64,000 nt of DNA from Saccharopolyspora aridisoli. Lineage in GTDB: Bacteria; Actinomycetota; Actinomycetes; Mycobacteriales; Pseudonocardiaceae. The notes under the pieces are model-generated. The model was given only the letters and a program-made list of their open reading frames with translations, ran no database searches and was not told the origin of the DNA. The stretch covers positions 1 to 64,000 of the forward strand of contig NZ_SMKV01000028.1 in assembly GCF_004348445.1 (NCBI RefSeq). The letters run 5' to 3'. Positions within the stretch are counted from its first letter, which is position 1, and every line of letters starts with the position of its first letter. Below, one piece after another: positions 53,151 through 63,111 of the stretch. Position numbers and translations under genes: made by a program.

Positions 53151-55937
53151 ATGGCGCGACGTTCACTGGTCGTCACCCTCGTGGCGGTCATCGCGGGATC
53201 CCTGTTGATCGCCCCGGGGGCCAACGCCCAACCTCCGGAGGACTACTGCCGCCAGCAGTGCCACGACGTCCTCCCGCCCGGCCAGAACGGCAACGCGACC
53301 TTCGCCGAGCTGGTCTCGCACATGCTGCTGGGCACGCGCCCGAAGCACTCCGACGACCAGCTCGGCAGGTACGACGCGCTGGCAGGCGGGTACCGCGAGC
53401 TGACCACCGGCACCATCCAGCGCTTCTTCAACGACCACTCCTTCGGCGTGCGGCCGGACGACGTTGAGCGCACCTACCGGCCGCGCGCGGACGTCACCGT
53501 CGTCCGCGACAAGACCGCCGGCGTCCCGCACGTCTACGGCGACACCCGGTCCGGGACGACCTTCGGCGCGGGCTACACCACCGCCGAGGACAAGCTGTTC
53601 CTGATGGACGCGCTGCGCCACGCCGGTCGCGGCGAGATCACGCCGTTCGCCGGGGGCGCGCCCGCCAACCGGGAGCTGGAGCAGAGCTTCTTCTCCGCCT
53701 CGCCCTACACAGCCGAGGAGCTGCAGGACCAGATCGACCGGGTCGCGGCCCAGGGCGAGCGCGGCCGGATGGCGCTGCAGGACGCGCAGTCCTACGTCGA
53801 CGGCATCAACGCCTACATCCAGGAGTCCCACCGGGGCCGCTACTTCCCGGGCGAGTACGTCGCGACCGGTCACGTGGACCCGGTGACCAACGAGGGCCGC
53901 ATCGAGCCGTTCCAGCTCACCGACCTGGTGGTGCTGGCGTCGCTGATCGGAGCCCAGTTCGGCGGTGGCGGCGGGGGAGAGGTGCAGAACGCCGTCGCCA
54001 GGATGTCGTTGCACGAGCGCTTCGGGCCCGAGCGCGGTGAGCAGGTCTGGGCCGCCTTCCGCTCGGAGAACGACCCGGAGGCCATCAGCACCGTCCACGA
54101 TGGACGCTCCTTCGAGTACGGCAACGCCCCGGCGAACCCGGGGGGCGCGGCGCTGCCGGACCCGGGGTCGGTCGCGGACCAGCAGCTCGTCTTCGACCCG
54201 ACCGGCTCGGCGACCCAACCCGACGAGAAGCCCTCGCGGCCGGTCGTCGACCCCGACGACCCGCTGCGCGGCATCTTCGACGACGGCGTCCTGCCCGCCG
54301 ACATGGCCGAGCGCAGGGGCATGTCGAACGCCCTCGTGGTCTCCGGCGCGCACACCGAGAGCGGCCACCCGGTGGCGGTGTTCGGCCCGCAGACGGGTTA
54401 CTTCTCGCCGCAGCTGCTGACCTTGCAGGAGCTGCAGGGGCCGGGCATCTCCTCGAAAGGTGCCTCGTTCGCGGGCCTGAGCTTCTACACGTTGCTCGGA
54501 CGCGGCCAGGACTACTCGTGGAGCGCCACAACCGCCTCGCAGGACATGATCGACACCTACGCGGTCGAGCTGTGCTCACCCGACGGCGGACCGGTCACCG
54601 AGGACTCGAACTCCTACCGCTTCCACGGCGAATGCCTGCCGATGCAGACCATCGAGCGGCGGAACGCTTGGAAGCCCAACCTCGGCGACGACACCCCGGA
54701 GGGCTCCTACCGGCTGGTGTCCTTCCGCACCCGCTACGGCCCCGTCACGCACCGGGCCACTGTGGACGGTGATCCGGTCGCCTACACCACCGCCCGGTCG
54801 ACCTTCCTGCACGAGGTGGACTCGATCATCGGTTTCCAGAAGTTCAACGACCCGTCGGCGGTGTCCTCGGCGGAGGACTTCCAGCGCGCGGCGCACGACA
54901 TCAACTACACGTTCAACTGGTTCTACGCCGATTCCCGCGACACCGCGTACTTCAACTCCGGGGCGAACGTGGTGCGCCGACCCCACGTCGACCCGAGCAT
55001 GCCGATCGTCTCGGACCCGGCCCACGAGTGGCCGGGTTGGGACCCGGAGACCAACACGGCGACCTACCAGCCCTTCGCCGAGCACCCGCACTCCGTCAAC
55101 CAGGACTACTACATCAGCTGGAACAACAAGCAGGCCCCGGGGACCGCGGGCGACCGGGCGGAGAAGGGCGCGGTGCAGCGCGGTGATCTGCTCGATCGTC
55201 GGGTGCGCGAGCAGATCACCTCGGGTGATGAGTTCAACCGCGCCGAGCTCGTGCGGGCCATGGCCGACGCCGCGATCACCGACCTGCGCGCCGAACGGGT
55301 CCTGCCCGACCTGCTGCGCGTCATCGGCGAACCCGACGAGCGCTCGAAACCGCTGGTCGACGAGCTGCGCGCGTGGCTGGCCGACGGCGGCAAGCGCACC
55401 GAGACCTCGCCGGGCAGCAGGTCCTACGCGCACGCCGGGGCCATCGAGCTGCTCGACGCGTGGTGGCCGCTGCTGGTCCGCGGTGAGTTCGAACCTGCCG
55501 TCGGAACCGCCGCCTACCGGGCGATGACCGCGATGATGCAGATCAACGAGTCGCCGTCGGGATGGCAGAACGGCGAACCCGGGTTGCACGTCGGCCAGGG
55601 CCACCAGGGTTCGACCTTCCAGTTCGGCTGGTTCGGCCAGGTCTCCAAGGACATCCGCGCCGTTCTCGGCGAGCAGGTCCCGGGCGGTTTCGGCGCACCG
55701 CTGTGCGGCGGTGGTGACCTGGGCGCGTGCCGCCAGATGCTGCTCGACACCCTCGCCCAGGCTGCCGCGACCCCGTCGGAGGAGACCTACCCGGGCGACG
55801 CCGACTGCGACCCCGGCGACCAGTGGTGCGCGGACTCCATCGTGCAGAACGAGGTCGGCGGCATCGAGCAGGACAAGATCTCCTGGCAGAACCGCCCCAC
55901 CTACCAGCAGGTCATCGAGTTCCCCGCCCACCGCTGA
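53151..55937 (+). CDS. Secreted penicillin acylase-family Ntn hydrolase
   Basis: A 928-residue precursor of peptidase family S45. A signal peptide (LVVTLVAVIAGSLLIAPGANA) ends near residue 26. The alpha chain has the substrate-pocket start DKTAGVPHVYGDT. The beta chain should begin at Ser392 in RRGMSNALVVSGAHTESG; that Ser is the nucleophile after autocleavage. The residue before it is Met instead of the more usual Gly. The usual PH motif after the nucleophile reads PQTGY here. Substrate could be a beta-lactam, an acyl-homoserine lactone or a cyclic lipopeptide. Confidence 0.88.
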   Translation: MARRSLVVTLVAVIAGSLLIAPGANAQPPEDYCRQQCHDVLPPGQNGNATFAELVSHMLLGTRPKHSDDQLGRYDALAGGYRELTTGTIQRFFNDHSFGVRPDDVERTYRPRADVTVVRDKTAGVPHVYGDTRSGTTFGAGYTTAEDKLFLMDALRHAGRGEITPFAGGAPANRELEQSFFSASPYTAEELQDQIDRVAAQGERGRMALQDAQSYVDGINAYIQESHRGRYFPGEYVATGHVDPVTNEGRIEPFQLTDLVVLASLIGAQFGGGGGGEVQNAVARMSLHERFGPERGEQVWAAFRSENDPEAISTVHDGRSFEYGNAPANPGGAALPDPGSVADQQLVFDPTGSATQPDEKPSRPVVDPDDPLRGIFDDGVLPADMAERRGMSNALVVSGAHTESGHPVAVFGPQTGYFSPQLLTLQELQGPGISSKGASFAGLSFYTLLGRGQDYSWSATTASQDMIDTYAVELCSPDGGPVTEDSNSYRFHGECLPMQTIERRNAWKPNLGDDTPEGSYRLVSFRTRYGPVTHRATVDGDPVAYTTARSTFLHEVDSIIGFQKFNDPSAVSSAEDFQRAAHDINYTFNWFYADSRDTAYFNSGANVVRRPHVDPSMPIVSDPAHEWPGWDPETNTATYQPFAEHPHSVNQDYYISWNNKQAPGTAGDRAEKGAVQRGDLLDRRVREQITSGDEFNRAELVRAMADAAITDLRAERVLPDLLRVIGEPDERSKPLVDELRAWLADGGKRTETSPGSRSYAHAGAIELLDAWWPLLVRGEFEPAVGTAAYRAMTAMMQINESPSGWQNGEPGLHVGQGHQGSTFQFGWFGQVSKDIRAVLGEQVPGGFGAPLCGGGDLGACRQMLLDTLAQAAATPSEETYPGDADCDPGDQWCADSIVQNEVGGIEQDKISWQNRPTYQQVIEFPAHR

Positions 55938-56044
55938 GCCGCTCGCCGCAGGCGTTCTCGGCGAAACGGCCCCACGCCGTCTCCCCGCCCCCGTAGGATC
56001 GACGGTCAATTCGGGCAGCGGTGTCCGAGGCGAAGGGGATGCGG

Positions 56045-58045
56045 ATGACGGAGCCCGTGCGGTTGACCGACAGCGCCATGCTCGCCCGACGCCTCTTGTG
56101 GGACCGGGCAACCGACGAACCTCCCAGCGCCCAACCGATCATGGTGCTGCTCGGACCGACGGGCTCGGGCAAAACCCGCGCTTTGCAGTCCATCTCGCAG
56201 GACTGCGGGAACAGCGTGGTGCACGCCAAACCGTTCGACTTCGGGCGCGAGCAGCCCGCGACCACGGTCGTGGCGCTGGCCGCGATATCCGAAGACCTCT
56301 CCCGGCGGTGGCGCGCTCGGCGCAGTGCGAAGTTCACCCGGTTCGCGCTCGGGCTGGTCGCCGTGCAGGCCAACCTCGACACCTTCGACCGGGTGAAGGC
56401 CAGGGCAGAGATGAGCGCCGCGTTGCGCGAGTTCGCCGAGAGCCCGCGTGCGAACGACATCGCAGTTCAGGTGGATTCCACCGCCGACGCGGTCGAACCG
56501 GTGCTGGACCCGGTGCTGGTCACCGCCGCGAAGTTGGTGCTACCGCGACTGATCCGCACGATCGGCCGGAGGTCGCTCGCCAGCGCCAAGCGCTGGCACG
56601 CCGACATCCCGGAGGCCGAGGGCGCCGAGCCGCTGGACGCGCTGATCCAGCTCAGCCGGCGGGCCCGCAACGAACCGGAGGCCATGACGGCCTGGCTGAC
56701 CTCGGCTTTCCTGGCCGATGTGCGGGAGAGCCACCCGGTCATGGCACGCCCGGAACTGGGCAGCCCGTGCTCCTGCGAGAACGAGGCGGGCAAGACCCAC
56801 TCGCACAACTGGGTGGTCTTGCTGGACAACCTCGACCATCCCGGCGGGTACGAGTTCCTCAGCGACATCATCGCCGCGCGAGAACGACATCTGAGGCAGC
56901 ACAACGAGCGCGATCCGCTGCTGTTCATCGGCACCAGCGGCCGGTGGAACCCCGAGTGGGAATCGCACTGGCACGCACCGTGGAAGTCCGCTGCCACCAG
57001 ATCCGACGAGGTCCTGGTGGTGCCGCGCTGCCGCGACGCGGGCCACTGGCGCAACAACCCCGAAGTGGGCAGACCGCACGCCCCCGTGCACCCGGTTCTG
57101 CTGGAACCGCTGGAGATCGAGGAGACCGCGAGCCTGATCGGGCGCAGCCCGTACTTCAGCGAGGCGAAGCTGGCTCAGCGCGCCACCGCCGGGCTCCCGA
57201 AGGCGGTCGAGGCTGTTTCCGGAATACTGCCCACCTCCCGCTTGCGGGAAGGTAGGCGCGACATCCTCGAACCCGCCGAGTCGACCCCCGAAGCGTGGCA
57301 GCAACGCCTGACCGATCTGCGCGTCTCCGAGCAGCTGCAGGACGTGGACCTCGCGGAATTCGTCAACGCGGCTCCGTTCGCGACCGCGCCATGGCTGGTC
57401 CCGGCCGAGTCGACCAGCCTCGTGTCGCTGCCGCAGACCGGCCGCATCCTCACCGAGCTGCGCAGCGCGCTGTGGGTGATCGCCCCGGATCGCGACAGCG
57501 GGACCGAGGACCAGTCCCTGCTGCACCCGTGGATCGCGCGGACGCTGCTGTTCGCCCTCAACGCGCGCGGGGAGCAGGACGGGGGCTCGTACGAGACGCA
57601 GTTCGAGGCGCTGCTCAACGATCCGCACACCCAGCGCGACCTCGCCCGCACGTCCTACTGCCTGCTGGCGCTGGGCCGGTTCGGCGAGGTCGTCGAGACC
57701 CTGCGCGAACGCTTCGACCAGATGCCGCACCAGAGGTGGGTCGACCTGCTGGTCCTGGTCACCAGCGCCCCGGACGACAAACCGCTGCACCGCGACAACG
57801 CCCAGGTCTACGCCGATCTCGTCGAGCAGGACCTGCGTGACGGACCCGCCGAGCGGGACCAGGTGCGCAACGTGCTCGCCCGGTTGATCGCCGCGTACTG
57901 GCTGATCGCGAATCCGCTGGCCGGCCCCGACCGGGAGCGCAAGAACATCGTCGTGCAGAGCTTCCACGAACTCGCACCACTGTCACACCGCCCGGACGTC
58001 GCGGCGCTCTACGAAGCTGCACGCCGTGCTGACCAGCTGTTCTGA
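56045..58045 (+). CDS. Predicted P-loop ATPase, unknown function, paired with next gene
   Basis: A 666-residue soluble protein. Walker A GPTGSGKT is at 37-44 and a Walker B-like VVLLDNLD at ~257-264. Directly before the latter is a CSC-x7-HSH cluster (Cys242, Cys244, His252, His254) that could bind zinc. It lacks an ABC signature. The order and spacing resemble AAA+/STAND-type NTPases; the C-terminal ~280 residues are helical with TPR-like pieces (ARTSYCLLALGRFGEVVETL). ATG 56045 is chosen because AAGGGG lies six bases upstream. It is 20 bp from an anchored binding-fold gene, so the pair is probably one functional unit. I do not recognise a named family. Confidence 0.7.
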   Translation: MTEPVRLTDSAMLARRLLWDRATDEPPSAQPIMVLLGPTGSGKTRALQSISQDCGNSVVHAKPFDFGREQPATTVVALAAISEDLSRRWRARRSAKFTRFALGLVAVQANLDTFDRVKARAEMSAALREFAESPRANDIAVQVDSTADAVEPVLDPVLVTAAKLVLPRLIRTIGRRSLASAKRWHADIPEAEGAEPLDALIQLSRRARNEPEAMTAWLTSAFLADVRESHPVMARPELGSPCSCENEAGKTHSHNWVVLLDNLDHPGGYEFLSDIIAARERHLRQHNERDPLLFIGTSGRWNPEWESHWHAPWKSAATRSDEVLVVPRCRDAGHWRNNPEVGRPHAPVHPVLLEPLEIEETASLIGRSPYFSEAKLAQRATAGLPKAVEAVSGILPTSRLREGRRDILEPAESTPEAWQQRLTDLRVSEQLQDVDLAEFVNAAPFATAPWLVPAESTSLVSLPQTGRILTELRSALWVIAPDRDSGTEDQSLLHPWIARTLLFALNARGEQDGGSYETQFEALLNDPHTQRDLARTSYCLLALGRFGEVVETLRERFDQMPHQRWVDLLVLVTSAPDDKPLHRDNAQVYADLVEQDLRDGPAERDQVRNVLARLIAAYWLIANPLAGPDRERKNIVVQSFHELAPLSHRPDVAALYEAARRADQLF

Positions 58046-58065
58046 CCCTTCGGATTGGACCGGTC

Positions 58066-59622
58066 ATGCCCCTGTTCCGAAGCTCCACCTCGTCCGCTCC
58101 GGTGCAGCCCCGATCTTGGCTGCGCCGCCACAAGTTCATCGCCGCCGCAGTGGTCGTCGTGGTGGTCGCCGCCGGGCTGGCGGTGTGGCAACCCTGGGAA
58201 CCGTGCGACACGGGGATGAGGACGGTCGGAACCTCCCCGAACTGCGTCGGGATCGACGTCGAGAACACCTCGTTCGGCGCCAACGACGCGACACGCGACC
58301 TGAGAGCACTGATCGACGAGCACAACGCGAAGGTGGCCGGGCAGGACTCCGTCACCGTGGTGGTGCTGGACAACATGACCCCGAACGCCCGATTCGACAG
58401 CATCGACGCGAAGCATGTGCAGCACGGTGTGGCGGGCGCGCTCGCCGCCGCCTCGCGGGCCAACACCGAGCAGGTCGCGAGGGAAACCTCACCGCAGGTG
58501 AGGCTGAAGCTGGCAAACTACGGCGCCTCGAACGAGGAGGCGGAGGCCGCCGCGCAAGCGATCATCGACGCGCGCGCGAGCGAGCGCATCGTCGCGGTCG
58601 TGGGGTTGGGGCAGAGCCTGGGCCACACCCGGTTGGCGGCGACCCGGTTGTCCGATGCGGGTCTCGCGGTGGTCAGCGGGATGGCGAGCGCCGACGACAT
58701 GAATCGGCGCTTCCAGGACGACTCGACGCACACCGAGCGGTTCTACCGAATCACTCCGACCAACATCGACGCGGCCAAGGCTGCCGTGGGTCATCTGAAA
58801 TCCCGCAAGGGAAAGCTCGTGCTCGTCCACGACACGAACTCCGGCGACATCTATTCGCGCACGCTCGCTGAAGCGTTCAGGAGTGCCTACTGGACGGAGT
58901 TCGGCGAACGACCCGGTGAGGAGGATTTCAGCTCCCCGACGGATCTGGTCGGCATCTCGCGCGAGAAGTACATGGAGGACATGTTCGCCGACGTCTTCGC
59001 CAGGATCTGCGCTGAGCAACCCGACCAGGTCTACTTCGCCGGCCGGGGCAGCGACCTGGCGGTATTCCTGAAAACCATCGCGTCGAACGGCATCTGCGTC
59101 AACGATCTCGACCTGGACGTCATCACCAGCGATGACGCCAGCGCCCTCATGCACCGGCCGCTGCCCGACTTCTCGCCGAAGCAGGTCAGGGTCTTCTACA
59201 CCAGCGTCGCGACTCAGGGCCAGTGGGACCACGCCGACCCGCCTCAGCCTGACAGCCAGGCCCAGTACCGCAAGTTCGAGGAGGCGTTCAACGAGTTGGG
59301 TTTGACGGACAACGATCCCCTGACCGATGGTTACGCGATGTCTGTGCACGACGCGCTGCTGGTCGCCATCGCCGCCGCCCGCGGGTTCGAGGCTCCGGCG
59401 GAGAACTACAAGCAGGTGTCGAACTGGATCAGGAAGTTCGATTGCAAGGGGCCGTTTTCCGGCGCCACTGGCAAGATCGCCTACCAGGACGATGCTGGGA
59501 GCCAGGGCAACCCGGTGGGCAAGGCGATGCCGATCATGCGTATGGAGCCGAACGGACATCCGGTTCAGGAGAGCCTGGTCTGGACTCGCCACGGGGCGTC
59601 CGACCCGCAATCGTGCGGGTAG
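58066..59622 (+). CDS. Membrane-anchored periplasmic-binding-fold protein
   Basis: A 518-residue protein with one N-terminal transmembrane helix (~24-42) after a basic segment (RSWLRRHKF), so the rest lies outside. Residues ~60-500 look like a type 1 periplasmic-binding (Leu/Ile/Val-receptor-like) fold: VAVVGLGQSLGHTRLAATRL, DAGLAVVSGMAS, GKLVLVHDTNSGDIY and DPLTDGYAMSVHDALLVA. It lacks a lipobox and has no neighbouring permease. Ligand sensing seems more likely than transport. Coupled to the ATPase gene upstream. Confidence 0.75.
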   Translation: MPLFRSSTSSAPVQPRSWLRRHKFIAAAVVVVVVAAGLAVWQPWEPCDTGMRTVGTSPNCVGIDVENTSFGANDATRDLRALIDEHNAKVAGQDSVTVVVLDNMTPNARFDSIDAKHVQHGVAGALAAASRANTEQVARETSPQVRLKLANYGASNEEAEAAAQAIIDARASERIVAVVGLGQSLGHTRLAATRLSDAGLAVVSGMASADDMNRRFQDDSTHTERFYRITPTNIDAAKAAVGHLKSRKGKLVLVHDTNSGDIYSRTLAEAFRSAYWTEFGERPGEEDFSSPTDLVGISREKYMEDMFADVFARICAEQPDQVYFAGRGSDLAVFLKTIASNGICVNDLDLDVITSDDASALMHRPLPDFSPKQVRVFYTSVATQGQWDHADPPQPDSQAQYRKFEEAFNELGLTDNDPLTDGYAMSVHDALLVAIAAARGFEAPAENYKQVSNWIRKFDCKGPFSGATGKIAYQDDAGSQGNPVGKAMPIMRMEPNGHPVQESLVWTRHGASDPQSCG

Positions 59623-59640: not shown

Positions 59641-60885
59641 ATGGACGACGTTTTCCGGCGGTTGGACGACATCCGCGACGACCTGGCAGCGCTGTACGAG
59701 GACCTGCACGCGCATCCTGAGCTGTCGTTCCAGGAGCACCGGACGGCTGCCGAGGTCGTGCGGCGGTTGGAGGCGCTGGGGCTGGAGGTCACCTCCGGCG
59801 TCGGCCGAACCGGTGTGGTGGGGGTGCTGCGCAACGGGACCGGGCCGACGGTGCTGCTGCGCGCGGACTTCGACGCGCTGCCGGTGCTGGAGCAGACCGG
59901 GCTGGACTACGCCAGCACGCAGCGGGCCACGGCCGCAGACGGCTCGGACGTCCCGGTGATGCACGCGTGCGGTCACGACATGCACGTCACCAGCCTGCTG
60001 GGCGCGATGGACCTGCTGATCACGGCGCGTTCTCGCTGGTCGGGGACGGTGGTGGCGGTGTTCCAGCCAGCCGAGGAGATCGGAGCCGGGGCACGGGCGA
60101 TGCTCGACGACGGGTTCTTGGAGCGCTTCCCACGACCGGACGTCTGCCTCGGGCAGCACGTCTTCCCGTTCCAGAGCGGCTTCGTGGGCATGATGAGCGG
60201 GCCTAGCATGTCGGCCGCCGACAGCGTGAAGATCACCATGTTCGGTCGCGGCGGGCACGGGTCGCAGCCGCAGAACGCGATCGATCCGGTGGTGATGGCC
60301 TCGGCGACGGTGATGCGGTTGCAGACGGTCGTCTCGCGCGAGGTCGCCGGTGATGACACCGCTGTGGTCACCGTCGGTTCGATCCGCGCGGGTACGAAGG
60401 AGAACATCATCCCCGACCAGGCGGAACTGCTGGTCAACATCCGGTCCTTCGACGAACGCGTCCGCGAGCGGGTCCTGGCGGCCGTCCGCCGCATCGTCCG
60501 GGCGGAGGCGATCGCCTCCGGTGCCGAGCGAGAGCCGGAGTTCGAACAGCTGACCCGGTTCCCGCTGCTGGTCAACGACCTCGACGCGACTTCCCGGACG
60601 ACCGGTGCCCTGCGCGCCGCGCTGGGCGACCACGCGGTGCTCGACCTGCCGCCCGCGATGGCCAGCGAGGACGTGGGCCTGTTCGGCGCGGCGGCGGGAG
60701 CCCCCACCTGCTACTGGTTCTTCGGTGGCACGGAGCCCGGCCGATTCCAGCGGGCCCTGGCCGAGGACCGGGTGGCTCAGGAGATCCCGGCCAACCACTC
60801 ACCGGGTTTCGCCCCGGCAATCGAACCGACCCTCACCACCGGCGTCAAAGCCCTCACCGCGGCCGCCCTGGAATGGCTCGCCTGA
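59641..60885 (+). CDS. M20-family amidohydrolase
   Basis: A 414-residue metallo-amidohydrolase of the M20D type (IAA-amino-acid or N-acyl-amino-acid hydrolases). Metal ligands are visible in VMHACGHDMH (~107-116), the QPAEEIGAGA motif, LGQHV, and a final His in PANHSPGF. The RFFGRGGHGSQP-like segment (FGRGGHGSQP) marks the dimerisation domain. ATG 59641 is 18 bp after the binding-fold gene, so it may be the third gene of that transcript. Confidence 0.9.
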   Translation: MDDVFRRLDDIRDDLAALYEDLHAHPELSFQEHRTAAEVVRRLEALGLEVTSGVGRTGVVGVLRNGTGPTVLLRADFDALPVLEQTGLDYASTQRATAADGSDVPVMHACGHDMHVTSLLGAMDLLITARSRWSGTVVAVFQPAEEIGAGARAMLDDGFLERFPRPDVCLGQHVFPFQSGFVGMMSGPSMSAADSVKITMFGRGGHGSQPQNAIDPVVMASATVMRLQTVVSREVAGDDTAVVTVGSIRAGTKENIIPDQAELLVNIRSFDERVRERVLAAVRRIVRAEAIASGAEREPEFEQLTRFPLLVNDLDATSRTTGALRAALGDHAVLDLPPAMASEDVGLFGAAAGAPTCYWFFGGTEPGRFQRALAEDRVAQEIPANHSPGFAPAIEPTLTTGVKALTAAALEWLA

Positions 60886-60924: not shown

Positions 60925-61818
60925 TCAGTTCGGGCTGGAACTGCCGCGGGCGAGCGCTCCTTGTTCGAGAGCGACCCAGAGCGTTCCGTCGGCAGTGAGC
61001 GTGAGTCCGTGGGGCTCGGAGGACGGATCGGGGAGCGCGTGGGTCTCGACGTGCCCATCGGGGGTGACGTGACCGAGGCGGCCCGTGGCCCACTCGGTGA
61101 ACCAGCAGGTCCCGTCGGGTGCCGAGGTGATCGCGTGCGGTCGGGAGGCGCGGTCGGGGAGCGGGAACTCGGCGATCTCGCCGTCCGGCCGGATGCGGCC
61201 GACCTGACCCGCGCCGATCTCGACGAACCACAACGCGTCGTCGGTGGCGGTGAGCCCGACCGGTGCCGCGTTCTCGGTGGGCAGCGGGAAGACCCGCACC
61301 TGGCCTCCGGTGCTGATGCGCCCGACCGCGTTGGCCTGGTTCAGGGTGAACCACAACGCCCCGTCCGGGCCGCTGCTGATCATCGAGGGGAAACCGCCCG
61401 CCTCAGGCAGGGCGAACTCGGTGATCTCGCCGTCGACGGTGATCCGGCCGATCCGGTCGGTGCTCATCGCCGTGAACCACAACGCGGAGTCCGGACCGAC
61501 CGCGAGCCCGCACGGGTTGGCGCCGGGCACGTCGAACCCGGTCACCGAACCGTCGGTGCCGATCCGCCCGATCCGGTCGCCCTGGTGCAGGGTGAACCAC
61601 AAGGCCTCGTCAGGTCCGGCGACGATCACCGTGGGACGGGAATCCGCCGGACCGGCCGGAAAGCCCCGGTAGCTCCCGTCGGGATCGAGGCGCCCGACTC
61701 GGCCGTGGTGCACCTCCGTGCACCAGATCGCACCGTCCGGCCCGGCTGCGACCCCGTACGGCCCGCACCCGGTTCCGCCGACCGGGATCTCCACGAATTC
61801 CACCCTCGCAGCCTTCAC
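60925..61818 (-). CDS. vgb: Streptogramin B lyase (Vgb family)
   Basis: A 297-residue seven-bladed beta-propeller that opens the macrocycle of type B streptogramins by an elimination. Blade repeats of the form GPDGALWFT...VGRI recur about every 42 residues. All four catalytic or magnesium residues known from staphylococcal Vgb are conserved at nearly identical positions: His228 (RPHAI), Glu268 and His270 (SEPHG) and Glu285 (VALEQ). It starts 51 bp after the tetR gene on the same strand, so both may be one transcript. Intrinsic resistance is the obvious role; actual substrate range is untested here. Confidence 0.85.
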   Translation of the reverse strand: MKAARVEFVEIPVGGTGCGPYGVAAGPDGAIWCTEVHHGRVGRLDPDGSYRGFPAGPADSRPTVIVAGPDEALWFTLHQGDRIGRIGTDGSVTGFDVPGANPCGLAVGPDSALWFTAMSTDRIGRITVDGEITEFALPEAGGFPSMISSGPDGALWFTLNQANAVGRISTGGQVRVFPLPTENAAPVGLTATDDALWFVEIGAGQVGRIRPDGEIAEFPLPDRASRPHAITSAPDGTCWFTEWATGRLGHVTPDGHVETHALPDPSSEPHGLTLTADGTLWVALEQGALARGSSSPN

Positions 61819-62667: not shown

Positions 62668-63111
62668 GTGGACCTCTCACTGGAAATCAACGGTAGGACG
62701 GAAGAGCTCAGCGTCGATCCCGGCGTGACCCTGCTCGACGCGCTGCGCGAGGAGCTCGGCGTCACCGGCCCCAAGAAGGGCTGCGATCGAGGTCAGTGCG
62801 GCGCTTGCACCGTGCACGTCGGCGGCCGTCCCGTCCTGTCCTGCCTCACGCTGGCGGCCACCGTGCAAGATTCGGTGACGACCGTCGAAGGGCTCGCCGA
62901 CGGCGAGTCGCTGCACCCGGTGCAGCGGGCCTTCCTCGACCAGGACGCGCTGCAGTGCGGTTTCTGCACGTCCGGCCAGGTCATGTCGGCCGTGGCCGCG
63001 GTCGAGCAGGACGTCGACGACGTCCGCGAGTTCATGTCCGGCAACATCTGCCGCTGCTCGGCCTACCCGAACATCGTGGCGGCAGTAGAACAGGCGAGGC
63101 AGGCGGGCTGA
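62668..63111 (+). CDS. Aldehyde oxidoreductase [2Fe-2S] subunit (PaoA/CoxS-like)
   Basis: A 147-residue iron-sulphur subunit of a molybdenum hydroxylase. The ferredoxin-type cluster uses Cys39, 44, 47 and 59 (KKGCDRGQCGACTV, LSCLT). The second cluster uses Cys97, 100, 128 and 130 (QCGFC, ICRC). GTG 62668 is chosen with GGGGAAGAG upstream. It overlaps the FAD subunit by one base (TGATG). Confidence 0.92.
   Translation: MDLSLEINGRTEELSVDPGVTLLDALREELGVTGPKKGCDRGQCGACTVHVGGRPVLSCLTLAATVQDSVTTVEGLADGESLHPVQRAFLDQDALQCGFCTSGQVMSAVAAVEQDVDDVREFMSGNICRCSAYPNIVAAVEQARQAG

Follow-up and report, generated by a model that had tools for sequence, protein, structure and literature searches.

Introduction

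In the EACC1–caspase conflict arrangement termed 'System 4', the caspase component carries transmembrane (TM) helices and, downstream of them at its C-terminus, an extracellular periplasmic binding protein (PBP) domain (Kaur et al., 2020, eLife 9:e52696, PMC7159879). The section of that paper on EACC1–caspase systems (section 33) does not describe a pair formed by an NTPase and a PBP. Here we analysed such a pair in a 64,000-nucleotide stretch of Saccharopolyspora aridisoli DNA (assembly GCF_004348445.1, contig NZ_SMKV01000028.1, positions 1 to 64,000 of the forward strand), which is called the window throughout. The pair consists of a P-loop NTPase, here termed A, and a single-span membrane protein with a PBP-like presumed ectodomain, here termed P. 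The initial annotation of the window had singled out the two genes as a candidate undescribed system for signalling, defence or envelope stress, or as part of a transporter. We find that A and P form a genuine, widespread receptor-like unit. The explanation that we consider probable is a two-protein transmembrane receptor in which P senses outside the cell and A, a STAND-like NTPase, signals inside. No description of the pair was found in the literature searched, in which most subscription journals were not covered, and as a unit it is apparently undescribed.

A and P are linked from either direction of search

Loci are given codes of the form L###, which denote fetched genome loci; genes were called in them by a custom script that was checked against the open reading frames (ORFs) of the window. 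In the forward direction, 150 related genomes were searched with P; 44 gave matches, and many of these gave several. From these matches 40 wider loci were drawn, together with two from the window's own genome. For the reverse search, an alignment of 12 A proteins (A3) was scanned over 84,980 species genomes and yielded 66 loci, some of them the same contigs as loci fetched earlier. Because the A proteins aligned in A3 came from loci with P, distant A relatives unlinked to P could be missed. Forty further loci, chosen from the P matches of three wider searches, brought the collection to 148 P proteins, present in 146 of 148 loci. Removal of copies sharing identical last 300 residues left 136 distinct P proteins.

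P adjoins A in all 64 A-found loci that are long enough to tell; the other two of the 66 (L102 and L149) run off their contigs. P lies directly downstream in 60 of the 64 loci, is fused to A in two and lies upstream of a TIR-NTPase in two. When counted from P, 106 of the 136 distinct proteins are directly preceded by A on the same strand, 19 are A–TM–P fusions and three have a TIR-NTPase downstream; among the remainder, six carry other long N-termini and two (L070 and L242) lack A. The 106 separate pairs have a median gap of 23.5 bp, with an overlap of one or four bases in 22. An additional 20 loci, most of them selected because their open frames looked odd, were kept out of the main counts; they include 14 with A upstream of P, a fusion (L299), a caspase form (L281), an HTH form (L285) and a locus in which no P was called (L292). 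The pairing of A with P is far above chance. Neighbourhood analysis agreed with the initial annotation in treating the pair as a unit: adjacency was recovered in varying contexts starting from either gene, and homologues were not usually unlinked (64/64 by the first count; 106/136 plus 19 fusions by the second). No constant third gene was found, the most recurrent neighbour cluster being present in 9 of 146 loci.

At E ≤ 1e-10, P was detected in 109 of the 200 genomes searched from the window's family and, in a genus that is probably Streptomyces, in 158 of 199. An even draw across the phylum gave P in at least 10 of 396 genomes at the same threshold, a lower bound with three candidates scored per genome. 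The named loci belong to Saccharopolyspora, Nocardia, Amycolatopsis, Streptomyces, Salinispora and related genera; the actinobacterial genera that carry A–P loci have a mycelial habit, and the pair is common among such filamentous bacteria of soil. A link to mobile elements was considered and rejected, as plasmid records rarely matched (P in four, A in one) and P was not found in the phage records searched.

A and P also occur as single chains

The window's genome contains a second copy of the unit, which is one chain of 931 residues (L033 6297-9092, contig C16) in which a degenerate NTPase half is joined through a helix to P. Full-length A–TM–P proteins of 1132–1147 residues with canonical Walker motifs were identified in L059, L130, L150 and L219, and such a chain would have its A part on one side of the membrane and its P part on the other. 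The fusions are the strongest sign that A and P, where encoded separately, may act together.

Three P proteins of 974–991 residues (L222, L234 and L235) form a separate observation. By eye, each N-terminus resembles an NTPase domain that has diverged strongly; it contains hydrophobic spans but no P-loop.

Sister architectures carry TIR, cyclase-like, caspase and HTH domains

In L066, L067 and L141, the gene that follows P encodes an NTPase-family protein whose N-terminus is a TIR domain (TIR_2, E = 1.8e-9, 2.7e-13 and 1.1e-12, respectively), an arrangement that we take to resemble known TIR–STAND layouts. L067 and L152 are one contig, on which the TIR-NTPase is split into two ORFs of 338 and 104 residues (L067:8702-10089) beside an intact P; in L066 it is unsplit. 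At the N-terminus of the L058 NTPase lies a region resembling class III cyclases (Ma1120, E = 2.4e-4), for which Pfam gave no cyclase match at E ≤ 0.5. L103 contains, besides A and P, a caspase–TM–P protein (Peptidase_C14, E = 7.2e-15) and an EACC1-like gene that scores 22.8 bits against a cut-off of 23.6. In L281 (6482-9205), EACC1 (E = 8.3e-22) precedes a caspase–TM–P protein (caspase C14, E = 9.4e-11) whose ectodomain is of the P family. L285 encodes an HTH_31–TM–P protein (HTH_31, E = 2.5e-7); a protein in L231 looks similar by eye only, its N-terminus being without a Pfam match. Since P-family ectodomains sit on caspase–TM–PBP proteins beside EACC1, the P family bridges the A–P unit and the EACC1–caspase system, as the latter is described in section 33 of PMC7159879. 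System 4 combines an EACC1 gene with a caspase or cyclase gene; none of the three was found among the eight scanned proteins of the window's neighbourhood. The initial annotation had anticipated neither the single-chain fusions nor the TIR, cyclase-like, caspase and HTH variants, the sharing of ectodomains with EACC1–caspase systems or the fast ectodomain divergence described below.

The ties to TIR and EACC1–caspase proteins make a conflict role for A–P plausible. As a conflict or cell-suicide receptor, the unit would sense invader, competitor or kin signals through its ectodomain and trigger death or dormancy through its NTPase, as proposed for EACC1–caspase systems. We hold this explanation tentatively and consider it somewhat doubtful. 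The TIR domains in L066, L067 and L141, the P-type ectodomains on caspase proteins adjoining EACC1 and the occurrence of A–P loci in mycelial genera all speak for it. Against it, A and P matched no known anti-phage defence family in PADLOC beyond weak and partial matches of A (best E = 0.0018; none for P), no defence genes were seen by eye among the 25 most recurrent neighbour clusters, and the main two-gene form has no recognised effector.

P is a predicted anchored receptor with a type I PBP fold

P has a single strong hydrophobic span (Kyte–Doolittle mean 2.45 from residue 24; nothing above 1.2 after residue 80), preceded by a basic tail (RSWLRRHK) and followed by the long ectodomain. A lipobox-like motif is present in 1 of 106 P proteins. 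Taken alone, P of the window matched no PBP model in Pfam, neither ANF_receptor nor Peripla_BP_6; at E ≤ 0.1 these models were matched by 12 and 6 of 30 P proteins, respectively. A 30-member P profile compared with PDB sequences recovered a Leu/Ile/Val-binding protein (4n0q, E = 5.8e-11), LivJ (1z15, E = 1.8e-6) and mGluR5 (3lmk, E = 2.8e-5). Profile homology to these solved members places P, as a sequence-based assignment, in the PBP-I/ANF_receptor ligand-binding fold. The one hydropathy span and the LivJ match accord with the single-span protein bearing a branched-chain amino-acid receptor-like ectodomain that had been proposed for the window.

Among the 136 distinct P proteins, Arg327 is invariant, Ser184 is kept in 128 and Ser/Thr208 in 131, and two Cys pairs are conserved as well. 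The juxtamembrane pair, Cys47 and Cys60, is Cys in 128 and 131 proteins, respectively, and 11 of the 13 exceptions are gaps. In the profile alignment, Thr/Ser208 falls on LivJ Thr102 and Arg327 on LivJ Tyr202, and Ser184 of the GLGxS motif lies near LivJ Ser79, just outside the aligned LivJ segment, which begins at residue 81. We take Ser79, Thr102, Tyr202 and Glu226 of LivJ to be ligand contacts. Conservation of Arg327, Ser184 and Ser/Thr208 suggests an amino-acid-like ligand for P, which is probably small.

Conserved pocket residues of the amino-acid type would also suit a sensor of nutrients or autoinducers through which development or secondary metabolism is controlled, with no role in conflict. 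A regulatory role gains plausibility from the HTH form: in L285 (and by eye only in L231) the same ectodomain is carried by a DNA-binding domain, and the high frequency of P in the probable Streptomyces set is in keeping with such a sensor. The existence of TIR and caspase variants and the ectodomain divergence in the window's genus count against it, and we regard it as a serious possibility that falls a little short of an even chance.

A resembles STAND-type NTPases weakly and seems unlike ABC ATPases

Walker A and Walker B (hhhhD) motifs, hallmarks of STAND proteins, are present in A of the window. Across the family, a canonical Walker A (GK[ST]) is found in 100 of 142 A homologues and the Walker B Asp in 137. 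The A partners in L225, L226, L230 and L249 have a degenerate Walker A (GSGAS, GIGRS or GMGRS) and retain the Walker B Asp. Part of the A family is probably composed of pseudo-NTPases, judging from these motifs. At E ≤ 0.1, 29 of 30 aligned A homologues matched AAA_16. A of the window stayed under the model cut-offs of AAA_16 (21.6 bits versus 32.6), nSTAND5 (15.9 versus 34) and NACHT (14.1 versus 26.7), and the L046 homologue narrowly passed that of AAA_16 (32.9 versus 32.6). Alignment of A by hhalign with NACHT, NB-ARC and ABC (control) sets from relatives gave probabilities of 25, 9 and 7%, respectively, for sets in which several sequences are very short and at least one is seemingly out of frame.

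The CxC/HxH cluster to which the initial annotation drew attention is real in A of the window and is restricted to 12 of 142 homologues, namely the window, ten of the 34 first-aligned A proteins (30–96% identical to A of the window, with which they form the nearest group) and L243; it was therefore rejected as a general feature of A. A KAP-type membrane insert likewise found no support: the KAP model was absent among the 25 listed of the 32 families matching alignment A2, and a 19-residue hydropathy of at least 1.6 between Walker A and Walker B was reached in 12 of 141 A proteins. For A of the window, no ABC_tran match was found at E ≤ 1 and no ABC signature was seen; three of the 30 A proteins in alignment A2 matched ABC_tran at E ≤ 0.1.

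These properties bear on the suggestion in the initial annotation that the pair belongs to a transporter, as an orphan binding protein and ATPase with a permease encoded elsewhere. The LivJ homology of P fits that suggestion, as does the most recurrent neighbour cluster, which resembles an ABC ATPase by eye, though it occurs in the above nine loci only and at varying positions. However, P has an N-terminal span and almost never a lipobox-like motif, it is fused to NTPase, caspase or HTH domains, and A seems unlike an ABC ATPase. None of the nine BPD_transp_2 permease matches of the genome lies on the window's contig; neighbours in the other loci were read by eye, with no permease-model search. 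Given the anchored P, the fusions to non-transport domains and the absence of a BPD_transp_2 match from the window's contig, the transporter explanation was set aside as very improbable.

The ectodomain diverges rapidly in the window's genus and, in one locus, is separated from the NTPase by a recombinant joint

The window and its relative L035 share 96% protein identity in A and 75% in P, and their flanks are about 95% identical in DNA. Over 150-bp intervals, DNA identity is 0.92–0.99 almost throughout the acylase, A and M20 genes and 0.67–0.91 in P beyond the helix. The ratio of nonsynonymous to synonymous substitution rates (dN/dS) is 0.22 for the acylase, 0.12 for A, 0.12 for M20 and 0.45 for P; P also has a dS two- to threefold that of the adjacent genes, and part of its high ratio may therefore stem from recombination or from misalignment. 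Among 51 non-independent pairs in which A is at least 80% identical, identity of P was lower by at least 10 points in 15 and higher by that amount in none. Fast divergence of P was seen in 11 of 15 pairs within the 16 loci of the window's genus versus 4 of 36 other pairs. It is thus a lineage feature of the window's genus, and fast ectodomain change as a general rule was rejected. When the window, L035 and L036 are compared, blocks around the presumed pocket are identical or nearly so and other stretches of P change, which hints at a change of surface rather than of ligand.

L069 is one clear case of recombination within the unit. In trees its A groups with L046 and its P with L060, each with 100/100 support, and forcing the alternative grouping was rejected (P values of the approximately unbiased test, 4e-63 and 3e-5), the groups having been chosen after the identities were seen. 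The NTPase, the tail of P, the helix and the first extracellular stretch are L046-like; from about codon 78 the ectodomain is 88–100% identical to L060 per 60 bp. The recombinant joint separates the signalling half (NTPase and TM helix) from the sensing half (ectodomain). The upstream flank of L069 is 94.4% identical to L060 and 90.4% to L046, and the downstream flank, at about 93 and 92%, is hardly decisive. Because the upstream flank is nearer L060, the NTPase and TM side is the likelier import, and an ectodomain swap between L046 and L069 is disfavoured.

In the window's genus, the fast change and mosaic make-up of the ectodomain would be in line with a conflict receptor. The constancy of pocket-type motifs where other stretches vary, and the rarity of fast divergence among close pairs outside that genus, are not. 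The same observations bear on a more specific proposal, which we consider unlikely, that A–P units are surface immune- or kin-recognition receptors. In such receptors an extracellular ectodomain of amino-acid-receptor type, rapidly diversifying and exchangeable, would be connected through the membrane to an NLR-like NTPase that stays conserved, and sister systems would give their output through TIR, cyclase-like and caspase domains; A–P would then be the extracellular counterpart of intracellular STAND immunity.

Gene neighbourhood in the window

Re-checking of the ORFs reproduced the layout first proposed, with A, P and an M20 amidohydrolase gene separated by gaps of 20 bp (A to P) and 18 bp (P to M20) and with the Walker motifs in place (Table 1). 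Alternative in-frame starts of A are possible at 56039 and 56021.

Table 1. Positions in the window of the A–P unit, its sequence features and adjacent genes
Feature	Coordinates	Strand	Basis
A, 666-residue P-loop NTPase (AAA_16/STAND-like), presumed cytoplasmic switch	56045..58045	+	ORF and profile matches
Walker A region of A, VLLGPTGSGKTR, P-loop GPTGSGKT	56144..56179	+	sequence
Putative metal site of A, CSCENEAGKTHSH, C-S-C...H-S-H, immediately N-terminal of Walker B	56768..56806	+	sequence
Walker B-like strand of A, VVLLDN	56813..56830	+	sequence
P, 518-residue single-span membrane protein, presumed extracellular PBP-I (LivJ/ANF-type) ectodomain	58066..59622	+	
Predicted TM helix of P, residues 24-42	58135..58191	+	hydropathy
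Juxtamembrane Cys47-Cys60 loop of P, putative disulfide	58204..58245	+	Cys conservation
Ectodomain of P, diverging far beyond flanks between close species	58246..59619	+	DNA/protein comparison
VVGLGQS block of P, with Ser184	58597..58617	+	conservation and LivJ alignment
FAGRG block of P, with Arg327	59035..59049	+	conservation and LivJ alignment
M20 amidohydrolase, neighbour judged a bystander	59641..60885	+	
Penicillin-amidase-type acylase, directly upstream of A, signal-peptide-like start	53151-55937	+	PF01804 (Penicil_amidase), E 1.7e-113

The acylase, which matches Penicil_amidase, is co-directional and syntenic with A, P and M20 in four loci (the window and L035–L037). This order could reflect an operon for N-acyl amino-acid metabolism, consisting of acylase, receptor and M20 hydrolase, in the window and three close relatives. 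Such an operon appears improbable: the acylase was found in no other of the 148 loci, M20 is a same-strand neighbour in the same 4 of 148 (the window and its three closest relatives), and in seven other loci a distantly related M20 gene lies on the opposite strand at positions +1 to +4. M20 had been offered either as the effector of the unit or as a bystander; its rare same-strand occurrence speaks against the former, which was rejected, and leaves the latter.

Farther downstream, a gene for a Virginiamycin B lyase family protein (60928-61818, minus strand; PF24684, E = 7.6e-130) is convergent with the M20 gene. The product of 62668-63111 (plus strand) resembles by eye the 2Fe-2S subunit of a molybdenum hydroxylase, and the genes that follow (L034 8112-11233) extend past the window end.

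Discussion

The linkage of A and P from both directions, their fusion into single chains and the low probability of a transporter favour the signalling option of the initial annotation, and we interpret the pair as a two-protein transmembrane receptor. The hydropathy span, the PBP-I profile match, the conserved pocket-type residues, the sister systems whose TIR, cyclase-like, caspase or HTH modules lie in the presumed cytoplasmic part, and the joint in L069 are observed as well and are in line with this model. P would be anchored by one N-terminal helix, with its short basic tail inside and its two-lobed periplasmic-binding-type domain outside, where the latter may bind a small, probably amino-acid-like ligand. 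A would be a cytoplasmic P-loop NTPase of the STAND/AAA_16 type that works with the cytoplasmic tail and membrane helix of P. Ligand binding outside would be signalled to A and alter its nucleotide state or assembly, and the output would be given by A itself or by effectors attached to or recruited by it. We infer the topology, the physical A–P complex, the ligand class, the NTP switching and the nature of the output. From the variants only, we infer that the output might be conflict or cell death.

Several observations weigh against this receptor model. The sequence relation of A to STAND proteins is weak. Moreover, 42 of 142 A homologues are without a canonical Walker A, so NTP hydrolysis cannot be general and was rejected as a universal requirement of A. 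Neither a recognised effector domain nor a constant further partner was found on the main two-gene form. P occurs without a recognised A in L070 and L242 of the 136 distinct proteins and in L284 and L293 of the 20 extra loci. Finally, Asp356, the guessed counterpart of LivJ Glu226, is kept in 80 of 136 P proteins only, which leaves the amino-acid pocket incompletely conserved.

If the two-protein receptor is real, many actinomycetes carry a transmembrane receptor class that is neither kinase nor chemoreceptor and that combines a PBP ectodomain with a STAND-like NTPase. Orphan substrate-binding-like genes would then join the conflict network of caspase/EACC1 and TIR proteins, and for systems known chiefly from their effectors there would be a receptor side, with an extracellular ligand, that can be tested. 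The modular ectodomain offers a direct route to experiments on ligand and specificity.

Compared with known systems, A shares with STAND/AAA_16 NTPases such as NACHT and nSTAND5 a P-loop and an hhhhDN strand, and these families are its best generic matches. It differs from them in that A of the window falls below the curated cut-offs, the canonical P-loop is not universal in the family and the partner is a separate TM receptor. P has in common with type I PBPs and ANF_receptor proteins (LivJ, mGluR) its profile homology and the pocket-type Ser/Thr positions. Unlike them, it has an N-terminal helix without a lipobox, extra Cys pairs, an Arg at the LivJ Tyr202 position and a link to an NTPase. 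EACC1 System 4, as presented in section 33 of PMC7159879, is like A–P an actinobacterial, two-gene, membrane-linked system, and its caspase–TM–PBP proteins bear P-family ectodomains; the window unit, in contrast, shows neither EACC1 nor caspase and has a P-loop NTPase as the constant partner.

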